This document shows positions 33,944-38,310 of a DNA stretch of 64,000 nucleotides, piece after piece. Position 1 is the first letter of the stretch; every line of letters begins with the position of its first letter. The DNA comes from Xanthomonas phaseoli pv. phaseoli (lineage in GTDB: Bacteria; Pseudomonadota; Gammaproteobacteria; Xanthomonadales; Xanthomonadaceae). A program made the translations under genes and the position numbers. Under the pieces are notes generated by a model. It made no database searches. It had not been told where the DNA came from and saw only the letters and a list, made by a program, of their open reading frames with translations. Location of the stretch: assembly GCA_022749655.1 (NCBI GenBank), contig CP094243.1:1054001-1118000 (forward strand), written 5' to 3'.

Positions 33944-33971
33944 GAAGAGGGCCGCAAGCGCGGCCCTCTTC
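33944..33971 (-). terminator. rtcB terminator hairpin
   Basis: GAAGAGGGCCGC pairs perfectly with GCGGCCCTCTTC around a four-base loop, beginning at the rtcB stop codon. It is a strong 12-bp stem without a long T run. Confidence 0.7.
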
Positions 33972-35203
33972 TATCCCTTGATGCACACCACCTGGCGCAA
34001 GGTGTGCAGCACCTCGACCAGATCCCGCTGCGCCGCCATCACTGCATCGATGGACTTGTACGCGGCAGGCGACTCGTCGATCACTGCCGCGTCCTTGCGG
34101 CATTCCACATGTGCGGTGGCCTCGCGATGCTGTGCCAGGGTGATTTGCGCGCGTGCAGCGGTCCTGCTCATCACGCGCCCTGCGCCGTGGCTGCAGCTGT
34201 GGAAACTGTCGGCGTTGCCCAACCCGCGCACAATGTGGCTGCGCGTGCCCATGCTGCCCGGAATGATGCCCAGCTCGCCGGCACGAGCGCTGACCGCGCC
34301 CTTGCGGGTGATCAACAATTCCTCGCCACCGTGCGTTTCCTTTTGCACATAGTTGTGGTGGCAATTGACTGCGAGCTTTTCCAGCTGGAATTTGGGCAAG
34401 CGGTGACGCATCTCGGCCAGCACGCGCGCCATCATCGCCTCGCGATTTTCGCGGGCGTAATCCTGCGCCCACGACACCGCTTCGACATACTCGTCGAACA
34501 AAGGCTCGCCCTGCATGAAGAAGGCCAGGTCCTTGTCGGGCAGATGAAAACCCAATACGCGATGCGCCAGTTGCTCACGCGCGCGCTCGATGAAATACGT
34601 GCCGATCAGGTTGCCGGTGCCGCGCGAACCGCTGTGCAGCATCACCCAGACCGCATCGGTTTCGTCCAGGCAGATCTCGATGAAATGGTTGCCGCCACCC
34701 AGCGTGCCGATCTGGCAGTCCAGCTTGTCGGTCCGGATGCGCTTGTGCTGCTGCTTGATGGCGTCCAGACGCTGCACCAGCCCGGACTGCGCGATGCGGG
34801 TCTGGATGCTGTCCGGCAGCTTGCGGTGCTCGCCGCCACGGCCGTTGCCCACCGGCACGCTGCGCTCGATGCTGGAACGCAGCTGCGCCAGACTGTCGGG
34901 CAGGTCGTTGGCGCGCAGCGTGGTGCGCACCGCCGCCATGCCGCAGCCGATATCCACGCCGACCGCCGCCGGGATGATGGCGCCACGGGTCGGAATCACC
35001 GAGCCCACGGTTGCGCCTTTGCCCAGATGCACGTCTGGCGTCACCGCGACCCACGGACCGACAAACGGGACCGCTGCGATATTGCGCAGCTGCGCATGCG
35101 CCTGCTCTTCCAGCGGCACGCCGCGTACCCAGCCCTTGATCGGGGTGCTGCTGCCTTCGGCGTGCAGAAATTCAAAGTGTTGTGATGTACTCATTGTTGT
35201 CAT
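33971..35203 (-). CDS. rtcB: RNA-splicing ligase RtcB
   Basis: A 410-residue RNA ligase that joins 2',3'-cyclic phosphate and 5'-hydroxyl ends. Metal and active-site motifs are present: GVDIGCGMAAVRT, LGGGNHFIEI, LHSGSRGTGN, NCHHNYVQKE, GSMGTRSHIVRG and SCSHGAGRVMSR with the histidine that takes GMP. Starts at ATG 35203 or 35194 are both possible (MTTMSTSQHF or MSTSQHF). No archease or rtcA lies nearby. It is 45 bases downstream of the slipin gene on the same strand, a pairing known from bacterial RNA-repair operons. Confidence 0.94.
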   Translation of the reverse strand: MTTMSTSQHFEFLHAEGSSTPIKGWVRGVPLEEQAHAQLRNIAAVPFVGPWVAVTPDVHLGKGATVGSVIPTRGAIIPAAVGVDIGCGMAAVRTTLRANDLPDSLAQLRSSIERSVPVGNGRGGEHRKLPDSIQTRIAQSGLVQRLDAIKQQHKRIRTDKLDCQIGTLGGGNHFIEICLDETDAVWVMLHSGSRGTGNLIGTYFIERAREQLAHRVLGFHLPDKDLAFFMQGEPLFDEYVEAVSWAQDYARENREAMMARVLAEMRHRLPKFQLEKLAVNCHHNYVQKETHGGEELLITRKGAVSARAGELGIIPGSMGTRSHIVRGLGNADSFHSCSHGAGRVMSRTAARAQITLAQHREATAHVECRKDAAVIDESPAAYKSIDAVMAAQRDLVEVLHTLRQVVCIKG

Positions 35204-35248
35204 TACGTTGCGGCAGTGCGTGGCAGATCCTTCCGCCACGCGCAGCCT

Positions 35249-36373
35249 TCATTGCCTGATCGTCACCAATTGTTTCAGCACGCCATCCAGGCCGCCGAAT
35301 ACGGTGAGCTTGTCGATCTTTTCGGTGACCTTTTCCAGCGCCTCCAGTTCCTTCAAACGCATCAGTACCGGGCTGTCTTCGATCAGCTTGGCGGTGTTGA
35401 GCAACGAGCGCGTGGCGTTGGCCTCTTCGCGCCGACGGATGACGTTGGCTTGCGCCTGCTTCTCCGCCTGCACGACTGCGTTGAGGATCTCGCGCATCTC
35501 GCCCGGCAGGATCACGTCCTTGACGCCGACACCCAGTACCTCGATGCCGAAGCCGCTCACGCTGCCGCGCACATACCCGAAGATATCTGCATCCAGGCAG
35601 GCCTTGTCGCCCAACAACTCGTCCAGCGTCTTGGCCGAGACTGCGCGCCGCAAACCGTACTGCAACTCGCGATACAGGTAATCGCCGGCCTTGGCCACGC
35701 GCGTACGCATCGCCACGGCATCGGTGACGCGCATGCTGGCGGCCAGGTTGACCCGCAACGACACCTTGTCGCGCGTCAACAGCTCCTGTCCGGACACTTC
35801 GACCGACTGCACGCGCAGATCGATTACGTCGGTGCTGATGTTCTTCTGGAAATTCCAGAATGCATACGCCCCCGGCCCGAACGGTGCAAGCAGCTTGCCG
35901 TCGACGAACACCAGCCCTTGCGACTCGGCCGGCACATCCATGCAGACCGCCACACGCGACAGCGTGCCGAGCTGGCGCAGCCTGCGCTGCACATCGGTGG
36001 GCACCTGCAGCCCGTCGCCCAATGGCAGGGTCTGCACCTCGATTGCCGACGGACCACGCCAGTAAAGCGTGCGCGTGCCCGGTGGCAGCACGTCGTCGAG
36101 CTTGCCGTTGCGGATCAGCAAGCCGACCTGCACGGTGCCGATGTCGGCCAGCACGAAGTGTTGCGGCAGGATGCTGCCGAGCGTGTCGATCAGCATTTCT
36201 GCATCGCAGCCCACATCGGCGCCTTGCGTGATGGCGTGGACGATGACCTGGCGGCGACCCAACGGGTCGAACAGGCGATAGACGCCGGGGACGAGCACGC
36301 GCTCGAACCGACGGTTGCGATACACCAGGCCGCGCTCGCCGTCACCGATCACGACCCTCTTGGTCCAGAACAT
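35249..36373 (-). CDS. Slipin (SPFH/band-7 family) protein
   Basis: A 374-residue protein. Residues 1-120 form a divergent N-terminal domain (MFWTKRVVIGDGERGLVYRN) without an evident membrane helix. The SPFH domain covers about 140-320, with VDGKLLAPFGPGAYAFW, DLRVQSVEVSGQELLTRDKV, RYRELQYGLRRAV-like and SGFGIEVLGVGVKDVILPGE. A coiled coil, EKQAQANVIRRREEANATRS, follows. The family oligomerises into membrane-associated rings. Linkage to rtcB suggests a role in RNA repair stress, as noted for rtcR-type operons; no rtcR is present here. ATG at 36373 follows an AGGAG site. Confidence 0.88.
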   Translation of the reverse strand: MFWTKRVVIGDGERGLVYRNRRFERVLVPGVYRLFDPLGRRQVIVHAITQGADVGCDAEMLIDTLGSILPQHFVLADIGTVQVGLLIRNGKLDDVLPPGTRTLYWRGPSAIEVQTLPLGDGLQVPTDVQRRLRQLGTLSRVAVCMDVPAESQGLVFVDGKLLAPFGPGAYAFWNFQKNISTDVIDLRVQSVEVSGQELLTRDKVSLRVNLAASMRVTDAVAMRTRVAKAGDYLYRELQYGLRRAVSAKTLDELLGDKACLDADIFGYVRGSVSGFGIEVLGVGVKDVILPGEMREILNAVVQAEKQAQANVIRRREEANATRSLLNTAKLIEDSPVLMRLKELEALEKVTEKIDKLTVFGGLDGVLKQLVTIRQ

Positions 36374-36402
36374 GGCACTTCTCCTTGGGTTTGGCTCTGG
36401 TG

Positions 36403-36456
36403 GTCCGATCCGGGAATGCAGCCGTTCCGCCGCCCGGATCGGACTGCTGGCGGAAC
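36403..36456 (-). promoter_or_regulatory. Interlocking inverted repeats in slipin leader
   Basis: Two perfect inverted repeats cross each other. GTCCGATCCGGG at 36403-36414 pairs with CCCGGATCGGAC at 36433-36444 (12 bp). GTTCCGCC at 36424-36431 pairs with GGCGGAAC at 36449-36456 (8 bp). In RNA they could form either exclusive hairpins or an H-type pseudoknot; as DNA they could be activator sites. They lie 30-83 bases before the slipin ATG. Confidence 0.6.
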
Positions 36457-36463
36457 GTGTGCC
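36449..36463 (-). promoter_or_regulatory. Weak sigma-54 promoter candidate
   Basis: On the minus strand GGCAC is followed at the correct GG-N10-GC spacing by GC (GGCACACGTTCCGCC). The -24 half matches the consensus well, the -12 half poorly. It overlaps one arm of the inverted repeats. RtcR-controlled operons use sigma-54, which is why the site is listed. Confidence 0.25.
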
Positions 36464-36727
36464 GATGCAACGCGGCGTTGAAAGGTGGAAACGCCGGTGA
36501 CGGCGGCCGTGCGGGGCGCAATGCGCTGTTGGCGCCTGCATTTGTGTGACTGCTGCGGTGCGATGGCTTGCGTAGCGGCAGCGAACGGCGCAGCACGCGC
36601 GTTCAGGGCAATGGCCCGGCAGGGCGCCGCTGCTGTTGCAGGCAGTCAGGCGATGGCTTGCCTGTTGCCTGCGGCATGGGCGTTTCCGTAAGGGGACTTG
36701 CGTCCCGAGGAATGACCGAGAAGGTCA

Positions 36728-36801
36728 TGCATGGAGCGGGATTCGAACCCGCGACAGACAGATTACAAATCTGTTGCTCTACCCAACTGAGCTATCCAGG
36801 G
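36728..36801 (-). tRNA. tRNA-Thr (anticodon TGT), mismatched acceptor
   Basis: The minus strand folds as a 74-nt tRNA: TA at 8-9, D stem GCTC/GAGC, anticodon stem ACAGA/TCTGT with loop TTTGTAA (anticodon TGT), a five-base variable loop and a perfect T arm GCGGG-TTCGAAT-CCCGC. The acceptor arms CCCTGGA and TCCATGC pair at only five of seven positions, with C-C at 1-72 and C-T at 3-70, and CCA is not encoded. Either the 5' end has been altered by a junction, or this copy is degenerate. Confidence 0.7.
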
Positions 36802-36802
36802 G

Positions 36803-36867
36803 CGGGTATTCCGGAATCGAACCAGGACTACGGCTTTCGCCGCCGCTCCACCAGGAGCCGATACCCG
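36803..36867 (-). ncRNA. 65-nt tRNA-like element
   Basis: Directly upstream of tRNA-Thr on the same strand, 65 nt fold as a shortened tRNA. CGGGTAT pairs perfectly with ATACCCG as a 7-bp acceptor. A D-like arm GCTCC-TGGT-GGAGC and a T arm CCTGG-TTCGATT-CCGGA (four pairs, standard T loop) are present. The anticodon position is reduced to a GGC...GCC stem with a loop around GGCGAAA that lacks the usual T33. It may be a degenerate tRNA, or a tRNA-like RNA such as those found in RNA-repair operons. Confidence 0.5.
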
Positions 36868-37142
36868 TAACGAGAAACATGCCAAAGAGTTCGGTATACG
36901 CCACGGCATCGCCGCGCGCACCAGCTGGAATAAACTCCAGGCCGCTGAATATCTTTCGCAGTGTTTCTGATCACCGTTTTATTCAAACGGTAATTCTTGT
37001 CTGTGCATGACCACGCGCTACCCGTGCCCGGCACCTGGGCACAGCGCTCTCGCGCCTGGTCGCGTGCAACGTCCATGTTGTCGGGCAATCCATGCCCGGG
37101 TGCCTGGAAGGTCATCCACAAGATGTGATGCGAACGCACAAC
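36868..37142. other. Intergenic, no supported gene
   Basis: No believable open frame. An AT-richer patch at 36945-37000 may hold the promoter for the leftward tRNA-like/tRNA unit, but no motif is convincing. Confidence 0.4.
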
Positions 37143-37143
37143 G

Positions 37144-37177
37144 AAAAACGCCCCGGGATGCAGCATCCAAGGGCGTT
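37144..37177 (-). terminator. Rho-independent terminator
   Basis: On the minus strand AACGCCC pairs with GGGCGTT, enclosing an inner GGATG/CATCC stem, and is followed by TTTTT. It ends the short unit that includes the 35-codon frame at 37221-37328. Confidence 0.8.
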
Positions 37178-37220
37178 CGCGTGCCTCGGAGATCGAGTGA
37201 CCGATCTCCTTGTGAGGGGA

Positions 37221-37328
37221 TCAGTCGAAGAGGGTGATGCGCACGTCTGCTTTCTTCGTGCGCACATACGATGCCGCGCGGTGCGCGCTGGGCAGTCGAT
37301 TGAATGTGGCGGAGTTGAGCAGGGACAT
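37221..37328 (-). CDS. Possible 35-residue protein
   Basis: An ATG at 37328 opens a 35-codon frame (MSLLNSATFNRLPSAHRAAS, then YVRTKKADVRITLFD). The composition is protein-like but there is no strong ribosome site. A promoter-like pair upstream (37374-37402) and a clear terminator downstream bound a transcript of about 230 nt, so this could equally be a small RNA. Confidence 0.4.
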   Translation of the reverse strand: MSLLNSATFNRLPSAHRAASYVRTKKADVRITLFD

Positions 37329-37373: not shown

Positions 37374-37402
37374 ACATTACCTGCGTCTTTTTAACGGTGC
37401 AA
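37374..37402 (-). promoter_or_regulatory. Sigma-70 promoter candidate
   Basis: TTGCAC and TAATGT lie 17 bases apart on the minus strand, followed after about 45 bases by the ATG at 37328. The -35 half is good, the -10 half weak. Confidence 0.35.
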
Positions 37403-37662: not shown

Positions 37663-38310
37663 TCAACCGCCGTGCGTGCCCAGGGTGCGCGCGCCGGTGA
37701 GGATCATGCGCAGCATCTGCGAGATCTGCTCGATCAGCTCGGGATCTTTTTCCGGCGGCGAATCCATCGCCACCGCGCCCATCGCAAACACCAGCCGGGT
37801 GATCGCCTTGGACACCAGGGCAGGAGCATGCAGCTTGGCGTTGTCGGCCGCGGCCAGGCGAATCAGGTCCACGCGCAGCTCGTCTTCGAAATAGGTCAGT
37901 TCGCGCTCCACTGCCTGCTTGAAGGCGTCAGAGCCCACCGCGCCTTCGCGCAACAGCACGTGCAGCAGCTTGTCGTCGGCGCGCAGCTGTTCCATGAAGG
38001 CTTCGACCGAAACACGGATGACACTGCGGTCGGTGGAGGTCGCGCGCTGGCGCGCCTGGCCGATGATGGTGCGCAGCGAACGCCCGGCCAGGTCGATCAA
38101 GGCCACGGCGAGCTCGTCCATGTCGCGGAACTGCCGATAGAAGCTGTTCGGCGCGATGCCCGCCTCGCGTGCCACTTCGCGCAGGCTCAGTGTGGACAGG
38201 CTGCGGTGCGGGCCAATCAAGGACAGTGCTGCAGCGATGAGATCCTCACGTGAAATCGCCGGCTTGCGGGACGGCGGCGCGTCGTGGGAAGGCAGGGCGA
38301 TAGAGGTCAT
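37663..38310 (-). CDS. TetR-family regulator (FabR/DesT-like)
   Basis: A 215-residue repressor. The helix-turn-helix covers residues 20-65 (REDLIAAALSLIGPH, LREVAREAGIAPNSFYRQFR). The remainder fits the FabR/DesT ligand domain. In Pseudomonas and E. coli these regulators sense acyl-CoA or acyl-ACP saturation and control desaturase genes. The divergent oxidoreductase and desaturase genes and an operator-like palindrome between them match that role, which is an inference. Confidence 0.85.
   Translation of the reverse strand: MTSIALPSHDAPPSRKPAISREDLIAAALSLIGPHRSLSTLSLREVAREAGIAPNSFYRQFRDMDELAVALIDLAGRSLRTIIGQARQRATSTDRSVIRVSVEAFMEQLRADDKLLHVLLREGAVGSDAFKQAVERELTYFEDELRVDLIRLAAADNAKLHAPALVSKAITRLVFAMGAVAMDSPPEKDPELIEQISQMLRMILTGARTLGTHGG

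Follow-up and report, generated by a model that had tools for sequence, protein, structure and literature searches.

The slipin-rtcB locus of Xanthomonas phaseoli pv. phaseoli lies in a 64,000-nucleotide (nt) stretch of DNA (GCA_022749655.1, CP094243.1, positions 1,054,001-1,118,000), which was analysed as a whole and is called the window here; its genome is G000 (C1) in our comparisons. Comparison with relatives indicates that this locus is almost certainly one conserved RNA-plus-protein unit on a single strand, in which a tandem tRNA-like domain precedes the genes for a slipin-like protein and for the RNA ligase RtcB. A preliminary description of the window, made from its letters alone, had listed a 65-nt tRNA-like element, a tRNA-Thr with a damaged acceptor, slipin and rtcB in a minus-strand row. 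All of these items were present on the minus strand and in that 5' to 3' order (the second of them as a tRNA-Thr call); as alignments of relatives make clear, the 65-nt element and the "tRNA-Thr" together make up a single conserved tandem tRNA-like domain, one half each, hereafter the dimer. The core features of the unit are as follows, in window coordinates:

About 36803-36868 (listed as 36803..36866), minus strand: tRNA-like element 1, with a 6-base-pair (bp) acceptor and a short anticodon arm, followed by CCC in the window.
36732..36798, minus strand: tRNA-like element 2, with a 4-bp acceptor, normal D, T and anticodon arms, and a triplet that is not conserved.
35249..36373, minus strand: slipin-like SPFH/Band_7 protein (Pfam, 106 bits) that carries two additional beta modules at its N-terminus and a long helix at its C-terminus.
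33971..35239, minus strand: RtcB RNA ligase (Pfam, 405.5 bits over the full profile), with its HGAGR motif aligned to a solved RtcB.

The dimer alignment (A1) comprised 71 rows, the window and 70 slipin loci; in one of these (L008) the 5' part of element 1 was replaced by other DNA. Of the 36 pairs in the consensus fold of A1, 22 show two-sided changes, and 97.7% of its cells are paired, with a covariation of 0.316 as compared with 0.128 in shuffled alignments and at most 0.071 with partners slid. This covariation supports two cloverleaves. Folded alone, the 65-nt element forms a small cloverleaf (z -2.29). The two elements abut, with a direct join (CCA-C-TGGA) in 49 of the 71 rows; element 1 has a covarying 6-bp acceptor, after which CCA stands in 53 of the 71, and its anticodon arm is shortened in many of them. 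In Rfam, the only match of element 1 was to tRNA-Sec, at 25 bits and so below the cut-off of 47; ARAGORN and Rfam (62.7 bits) called tRNA-Thr(TGT) over element 2 at 36728-36801.

The reading of element 2 as a tRNA-Thr with a damaged acceptor was not supported. Its acceptor of 4 bp (TGGA/TCCA) is the rule in the 71 rows and not damage, since pairing at the two positions that follow is limited to 9 and 8 of them; species differ in its triplet, and elsewhere in the genome there is a normal tRNA-Thr(TGT) gene. By eye, the acceptor seems longer in some distant relatives. Element 2 shares with functional elongator tRNAs its conserved D and T arms and a TTCGANT loop, with mean entropies of 0.02-0.08 bits in the D stem, T stem and acceptor and 0.27 bits in the T loop. 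The 7-bp acceptor of such tRNAs was found neither in element 2 (4 bp) nor in element 1 (6 bp), and the anticodon conservation expected between orthologues was likewise lacking: the seven-base anticodon loop, present in 65 of the 71 rows, occurred as 48 different sequences with 27 triplets. U33 was kept in 48 and A37 in 57 of these 65 loops. Because the D and T arms are nearly invariant and the triplet is not, element 2 is not a decoding tRNA. Even among the 30 Xanthomonas rows, in which several genomes are counted twice from two collections, there were 16 different element-2 sequences. The entropy of the anticodon stem (0.89 bits) arose through covarying changes, and that of positions 34-36 reached 1.76 bits. 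Other unconstrained positions of element 2 reached 1.27-1.43 bits and one T-loop position 1.71 bits, so plain lack of constraint suffices for the variation of the triplet; diversifying selection, which we considered, is not needed for an entropy only somewhat above that of these positions.

Relatives came from a slipin protein search, from which the best 80 of 153 loci were used, mostly from Lysobacterales and with Xanthomonas as the nearest named ones. After three loci with at most 360 nt upstream had been set aside (L006, L053, L065), 74 of the 77 that could be assessed carried the dimer upstream of slipin, 70 as judged by alignment with the window and four by the A1 model. This model scored 90-124 bits in L052, L080, L082 and L083, gave weaker dimer matches in L081 (74.5 bits) and L084 (53.2 bits), and found only a dimer fragment in L085 (19 bits). 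Absence of the element beside slipin-rtcB in relatives, which would have spoken against the preliminary description, was thus not observed. Downstream, rtcB followed slipin in 74 of the 80 relatives; seven loci (L036, L039, L044, L052, L054, L055, L058) have an extra 0.86-0.99 kb between the two, room for another gene.

The comparison across Xanthomonas that the preliminary description had proposed was made in 35 genomes. The dimer model scored at least 81.5 bits in 17 genomes, exactly those whose slipin match includes the N-terminal part, and the remaining 18 had neither the dimer nor the slipin N-terminus (Fisher 2e-10, not corrected for kinship), so that the two were present or absent together. 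The dimer adjoins slipin in 16 of the 17, and in the other (G012) they lie on separate contigs; in G009 slipin is broken. As a stand-alone detector the covariance model was rejected: other places reach 79.6 bits in Xanthomonas, a tRNA cluster reaches 70.8 bits in the X. phaseoli genome itself and, class-wide, places without a slipin match in the flank score up to 105.1 bits. The lowest-scoring match, in G008 (81.5 bits), was accepted as a dimer because of its location upstream of slipin.

The arrangement was also found in other lineages. Dimer searches covered 151 sampled genomes from the order and 321 from the class, and among the matches listed 57 new loci were kept, 23 of which had a slipin match in the 1.5-kb flank, ten with slipins 35-47% identical. 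In twelve larger stretches picked for having slipin matches (L192-L203), and in Burkholderia and Photobacterium records of the plasmid collection, the dimer model matched upstream of slipin, about 180-675 nt off; slipin is broken in L202. In the plasmid collection slipin occurred in 9 records, 5 of which were examined, and the phage collection held no slipin match at E 1e-10. The Burkholderia element 1 is minimal and, by eye, element 2 there has a 3-nt loop and a sigma54-like CTGGCACG sequence is present. In L200 and L201 an rtcB match comes before the tRNA-like RNA and slipin, hence the gene order is not fixed. Three tandem tRNA-like units rather than two were called by ARAGORN upstream of slipin in L195 (1669-1883) and L203 (4069-4290), and in two genomes of another family slipin is directly followed by a tRNA-Gln(ttg)-like gene (L196, 2306-2380; L199, 3211-3285). 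At two further loci, in Citrobacter freundii (L208, 3495-5413) and E. coli (L209, 3495-5419), slipin is followed by a gene with a nucleotidyltransferase domain and not by rtcB; rtcR precedes slipin in the former, and none is annotated in the E. coli stretch.

Similarity between genera extended beyond the dimer, for about 500 nt further upstream and over much of the gap to slipin, and the dimer sits in a leader of about 1 kb. The preliminary description had proposed that the slipin-rtcB unit might have its own RNA, and the comparison supports a conserved RNA as part of this unit; the structured leader, the leader open reading frame (ORF) and the terminator-like hairpin had been missed. Three further alignments covered these flanks: A3 (65 of 70 available sequences), A4 (36 of 65) and A5 (29 of 69), with Xanthomonas rows absent from A4 and A5. 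On these data the architecture of the unit is well supported. Its additional features, from the 5' end of the leader, are:

37374..37402, minus strand: promoter-like motif TTGCAC-N17-TAATGT, of a conserved class at a near-fixed place.
37221..37328, minus strand: leader ORF of 35 codons, an ATG ORF conserved in motif-bearing loci.
37188..37209, minus strand: leader hairpin GGAGATCGG..CGATCTCC, from the fold and from A5 helix 1 (95.8% paired, no Xanthomonas rows).
37142..37178, minus strand: intrinsic-terminator-like hairpin with a T run, a candidate attenuator (A5 helix 3, 98.9% paired).
37026..37106, minus strand: domain B, a long helix closed by GGCACC/GGTGCC in this genome (A5 helix 6, 89.2% paired; pairing in the window by eye).
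36970..36994, minus strand: hairpin D, ATTACCG..CGGTGAT (A5 helix 11, 93.9% paired, two-sided changes in 7 of 12 pairs).
36882..36956, minus strand: domain A, a junction with a conserved CCGGTGCGC..GCGTATGCC arm (CTGGTGCGC..GCGTATACC in the window), from A3.
36712..36728, minus strand: hairpin 3, after element 2 (A4 helix 1, 84.9% paired, two-sided changes in 6 of 6 pairs; window fold).
36693..36706, minus strand: GNRA-type tetraloop hairpin, GGGACGCAAGTCCC (A4 helix 2, 97.7% paired; window fold).
36487..36687, minus strand: domain C, with inner arms and a closing helix GGAAACGCC/GGCGTTTCC whose strands are about 185 nt apart (A4 helix 3, 98.2% paired).
36403..36444, minus strand: 12-bp hairpin directly before the slipin start (Xanthomonas alignment and window fold, support without a covariation count).

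Domain A (A3, 65 sequences) has 28 pairs, 92.1% paired, and a covariation of 0.324 against 0.134 in shuffled alignments. The 36 sequences of A4, which covers hairpin 3, the GNRA-type hairpin and domain C, share 67 pairs (89.2% paired, 53 with two-sided changes; 0.414 against 0.189 shuffled), and the 29 sequences of A5, which spans the leader hairpin, the terminator-like hairpin, domain B and hairpin D, share 78 (89.8% paired, 29 two-sided; 0.211 against 0.126 shuffled). The structures in A3-A5 were derived with RNAalifold from the same alignments, which favours them over the slid controls (at most 0.099). Two-sided changes occurred in 6 of 11 pairs of the domain C closing helix among non-Xanthomonas rows, and its partner in the window is 9 bp long. 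Motifs resembling domain A were also seen upstream of slipin in L195, L197 and L198. At its own cut-offs Rfam 15 detected nothing but tRNA in the window and four loci. The Xanthomonas small RNA sX2 was considered and set aside, its match of 22.2 bits falling short of the Rfam cut-off of 40, at window 37193-37289, the end of the leader ORF and the hairpin.

Within Xanthomonas the leader block gave a strong match at the locus in 18 genomes, namely 16 of the 17 dimer-bearing genomes (not G008) together with G011 and G033, and weak matches to its terminator part (E 5e-5 to 7e-4) at six other places in six genomes. The last two genomes named hold remnants, with no dimer match above ordinary tRNA pairs in either: G033 retains an intact rtcB and, of slipin, only the 3' end, and what remains in G011 is the leader block with 35 domain A bases and fragments of rtcB.

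The upstream end of the leader has the parts of a possible transcriptional switch. A motif of the class TTGC-N18..21-TANNNT with CGCG-like bases was present in 59 of the 68 loci in which the leader hairpin was found by pattern, 191-229 nt before that hairpin, and in 0.3% of shuffled stretches, a count that is descriptive only as the motif was defined on these same sequences. We infer that this conserved motif may be a promoter. Downstream of it, all 59 motif-bearing loci have an ATG ORF of 33-49 codons whose stop falls within 26 nt before the hairpin; when the stop window was shifted by -24, -36, +24, +36 or +48 nt, 0, 1, 0, 0 and 0 of the 59 qualified, as compared with 48 and 11 for the overlapping shifts of -12 and +12. 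The length of the ORF is thus kept although its sequence diverges. Changes at codon positions 1, 2 and 3 numbered 4, 4 and 7 in one Xanthomonas group and 11, 10 and 12 in another, and because they are so spread the peptide sequence itself appears little constrained. The leader hairpin and the terminator-like hairpin folded together gave a z of -4.05. A candidate antiterminator is also present, in that CCCGAGG before the terminator and CCTCGGG inside it could pair instead. Among 60 pattern-fitting loci the two strands agree in two versions, CCCGAGG/CCTCGGG (29) and TCCGAGG/CCTCGGA (27), which is a weak argument from covariation because the same bases pair in the terminator and the pattern presupposed the strands. 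A TetR-type regulator gene on the same strand (window 37663-38310) borders the leader.

In the window the Band_7 protein adjoins RtcB and has Band_7-type matches only in Pfam. Its AlphaFold2 model (predicted local distance difference test score, pLDDT, 82.7; predicted template modelling score, pTM, 0.55) contains an SPFH domain with a long helix; the whole model hints at vault membership of the slipin-like protein, and the N-terminal part alone does not. The absence of rtcR, rtcA and rsr noted in the preliminary description for the window extended to the whole genome, as far as an assembly rated 90% complete can show. Neither rtcR nor rtcA was found there, each occurred in 1 of the 35 Xanthomonas genomes (G006), and the E. 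coli control was positive for both; Ro/Rsr (TROVE) was found in 0 of the 35 and in 1 of 14 control genomes (Deinobacterium). G006 has a second rtcB, 58% identical, with rtcA and rtcR close by, apart from the slipin unit (C1:973110-978605, loci L242 and L243).

That an SPFH protein, RtcB and a tRNA-like RNA are associated is already known. Burroughs and Aravind reportedly described, in a 2016 abstract, SPFH/Band-7 (MVP-like) modules and RtcB together with a "novel tRNA-like molecule" as the cognate RNA, and the likeness to our locus lies in the joint presence of all three. The eukaryotic vault, with its major vault protein (MVP) and vault RNA, is also among the closest known systems. The trp and erm leaders are leader-peptide transcription attenuators, and the leader described here resembles such attenuators in having a promoter-like motif, a short ORF followed by a hairpin and by a terminator-like hairpin with a T run, and a candidate antiterminator. 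According to the preprint PMC13404743, which cites Burroughs and Aravind, MVP homologues, non-coding RNAs (ncRNAs) and RtcB share operons in bacteria. According to Hughes et al. (2020, PMC7790460), the Salmonella rsr-yrlBA-rtcBA locus is an RtcB operon under the control of RtcR that includes YrlA, an ncRNA with a tRNA-like domain. The present locus shares with it an RtcB operon and an ncRNA with a tRNA-like domain, and differs in that no Ro/Rsr, RtcA or RtcR gene was found in this genome and that its protein partner is an SPFH protein. Identity with YrlA was rejected (its Rfam model gave 17.9 bits, with the cut-off at 69; no Ro gene found). TrcR represses rtcB in Anabaena and a slipin gene is among those raised without TrcR (PMC10272220), and an SPFH gene is part of the rtc locus of P. 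aeruginosa (PMC13086221). In the literature searched, which did not include the 2016 paper of Burroughs and Aravind, neither the twin unit nor its flanking domains nor the leader switch was found described.

Taken together, these observations may best be explained by an RNA-repair operon that does not depend on RtcR and has both a leader-peptide attenuator and a tRNA-mimic RNA of its own, an explanation that comes close to an even chance without reaching it. In quiet cells, RNA polymerase would halt at the leader terminator. If ribosomes were slowed on the leader ORF, for example when tRNAs are cut, CCCGAGG/CCTCGGG pairing could block the terminator and the downstream region would be transcribed. 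With its tRNA elbow kept and no coding identity, the tandem tRNA mimic might then be recognised as tRNA by the SPFH scaffold, by RtcB or by both, and this recognition could gather cut tRNA-like substrates and the ligase on a ring- or cage-like scaffold. As to the parts, attenuation by leader translation has a little under an even chance of being correct, and a trans-acting role for the dimer as a tRNA mimic is a tentative proposal that we would sooner question than assert. Co-transcription, maturation of the RNA and a role in repair are what we infer from the arrangement. In its fullest form, which we regard as quite improbable, the proposal is a damage-sensing RNA-repair ribonucleoprotein made from one transcript: cut tRNAs would stall the attenuator to yield an RNA of about 0.75 kb, and the twin mimic at its centre, its anticodon free to change, would serve as bait or guide for a mini-vault SPFH cage with RtcB religating cleaved tRNAs.

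Several observations weigh against this RNA-repair explanation or parts of it. At 5 of the 80 loci (L063, L068, L081, L082, L083) rtcB was not seen in the sequence, and L077 ends at a contig end. The single-sequence minimum-energy folds of element 2 alone (z -0.54) and of both elements together (z -1.45) contain no cloverleaves, so the two-cloverleaf structure rests on comparison. Slipin loci of Citrobacter, E. coli and Subdoligranulum have no dimer match upstream of slipin; the Subdoligranulum locus has only a 15.9-bit fragment near slipin, and the Citrobacter and E. coli slipin-nucleotidyltransferase loci, considered as dimer carriers, gave no ARAGORN or model match, with a T-arm-like stretch in Citrobacter seen only by eye. 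In the leader, besides the circularity of the motif count, the window motif agrees with the E. coli sigma70 consensus in only 6 of 12 positions, and an E. coli-type sigma70 promoter was rejected because consensus scans found nothing beyond shuffles and a generic scan raised no flag. The leader hairpin pattern has no match in L040, L044 and L075. The leader ORF has no clear Shine-Dalgarno sequence by eye. It differs from known leader-peptide attenuators in having no run of a single codon at which ribosomes could stall, and the leader differs further in that, in folds, the first hairpin and the antiterminator helix are compatible with each other; the antiterminator covariation, as said, is a weak argument. 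Finally, a generic terminator scan missed the terminator-like hairpin. Separate transcripts with a strong terminator between the RNA elements and slipin would have spoken against the preliminary description; the same scan flagged no terminator-like site there on the minus strand.

The RNA could instead act only in cis, its tRNA-like fold being an element of the 5' untranslated region that serves feedback through cleavage by RNase P or through binding of RtcB or the SPFH protein, with no separate functional RNA. We consider this unlikely. It would fit the position of the RNA, which wherever both were found lies upstream of slipin on the slipin strand, about 180-675 nt off, and it would fit RNA domains that extend almost to the slipin start. 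The size of the RNA and its several peripheral domains, however, exceed what feedback needs, and in L200 and L201 the rtcB match precedes the RNA-slipin part. A function as decoy or bait, in which anticodon nucleases cut the anticodon loop of the dimer in place of real tRNAs, or in which the cutting reports damage, is very doubtful. The retention of a seven-base loop with frequent U33 and A37 around a variable triplet would suit a nuclease target, and a role as competitive inhibitor has been suggested for the tRNA-like domain of YrlA by Hughes et al. (2020, PMC7790460); yet free drift explains a triplet entropy so near that of the other unconstrained positions, and such a loop is hard to reconcile with the short anticodon arm of element 1 in many rows or with the 3-nt loop seen by eye in the Burkholderia element 2.

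The chance that the elements are two decayed tRNA genes, located upstream of the operon by coincidence, is negligible, even though one half is called as tRNA-Thr by ARAGORN and its acceptor is weak. Covariation and near-invariant arms are kept across an order, presence of the pair tracks slipin, and the genome has its normal tRNA-Thr(TGT) elsewhere; conservation, covariation and the free triplet likewise rule out an ordinary tRNA or pseudogene pair.

This work yields a list of loci and a covariance model for a large RNA that Rfam 15, at its own cut-offs, registers in the window and four loci only through tRNA matches. If the RNA-repair explanation is true, it would bear on the role of SPFH/MVP-like proteins beside RtcB and on the purpose of ncRNAs in RNA-repair operons. 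A translation-coupled switch would be a further means of rtcB control beside RtcR and the cyanobacterial repressor TrcR, and translation itself would govern the production of an RNA-repair enzyme along with a vault-like scaffold and a dedicated tRNA-mimic RNA, without the RtcR sensor.

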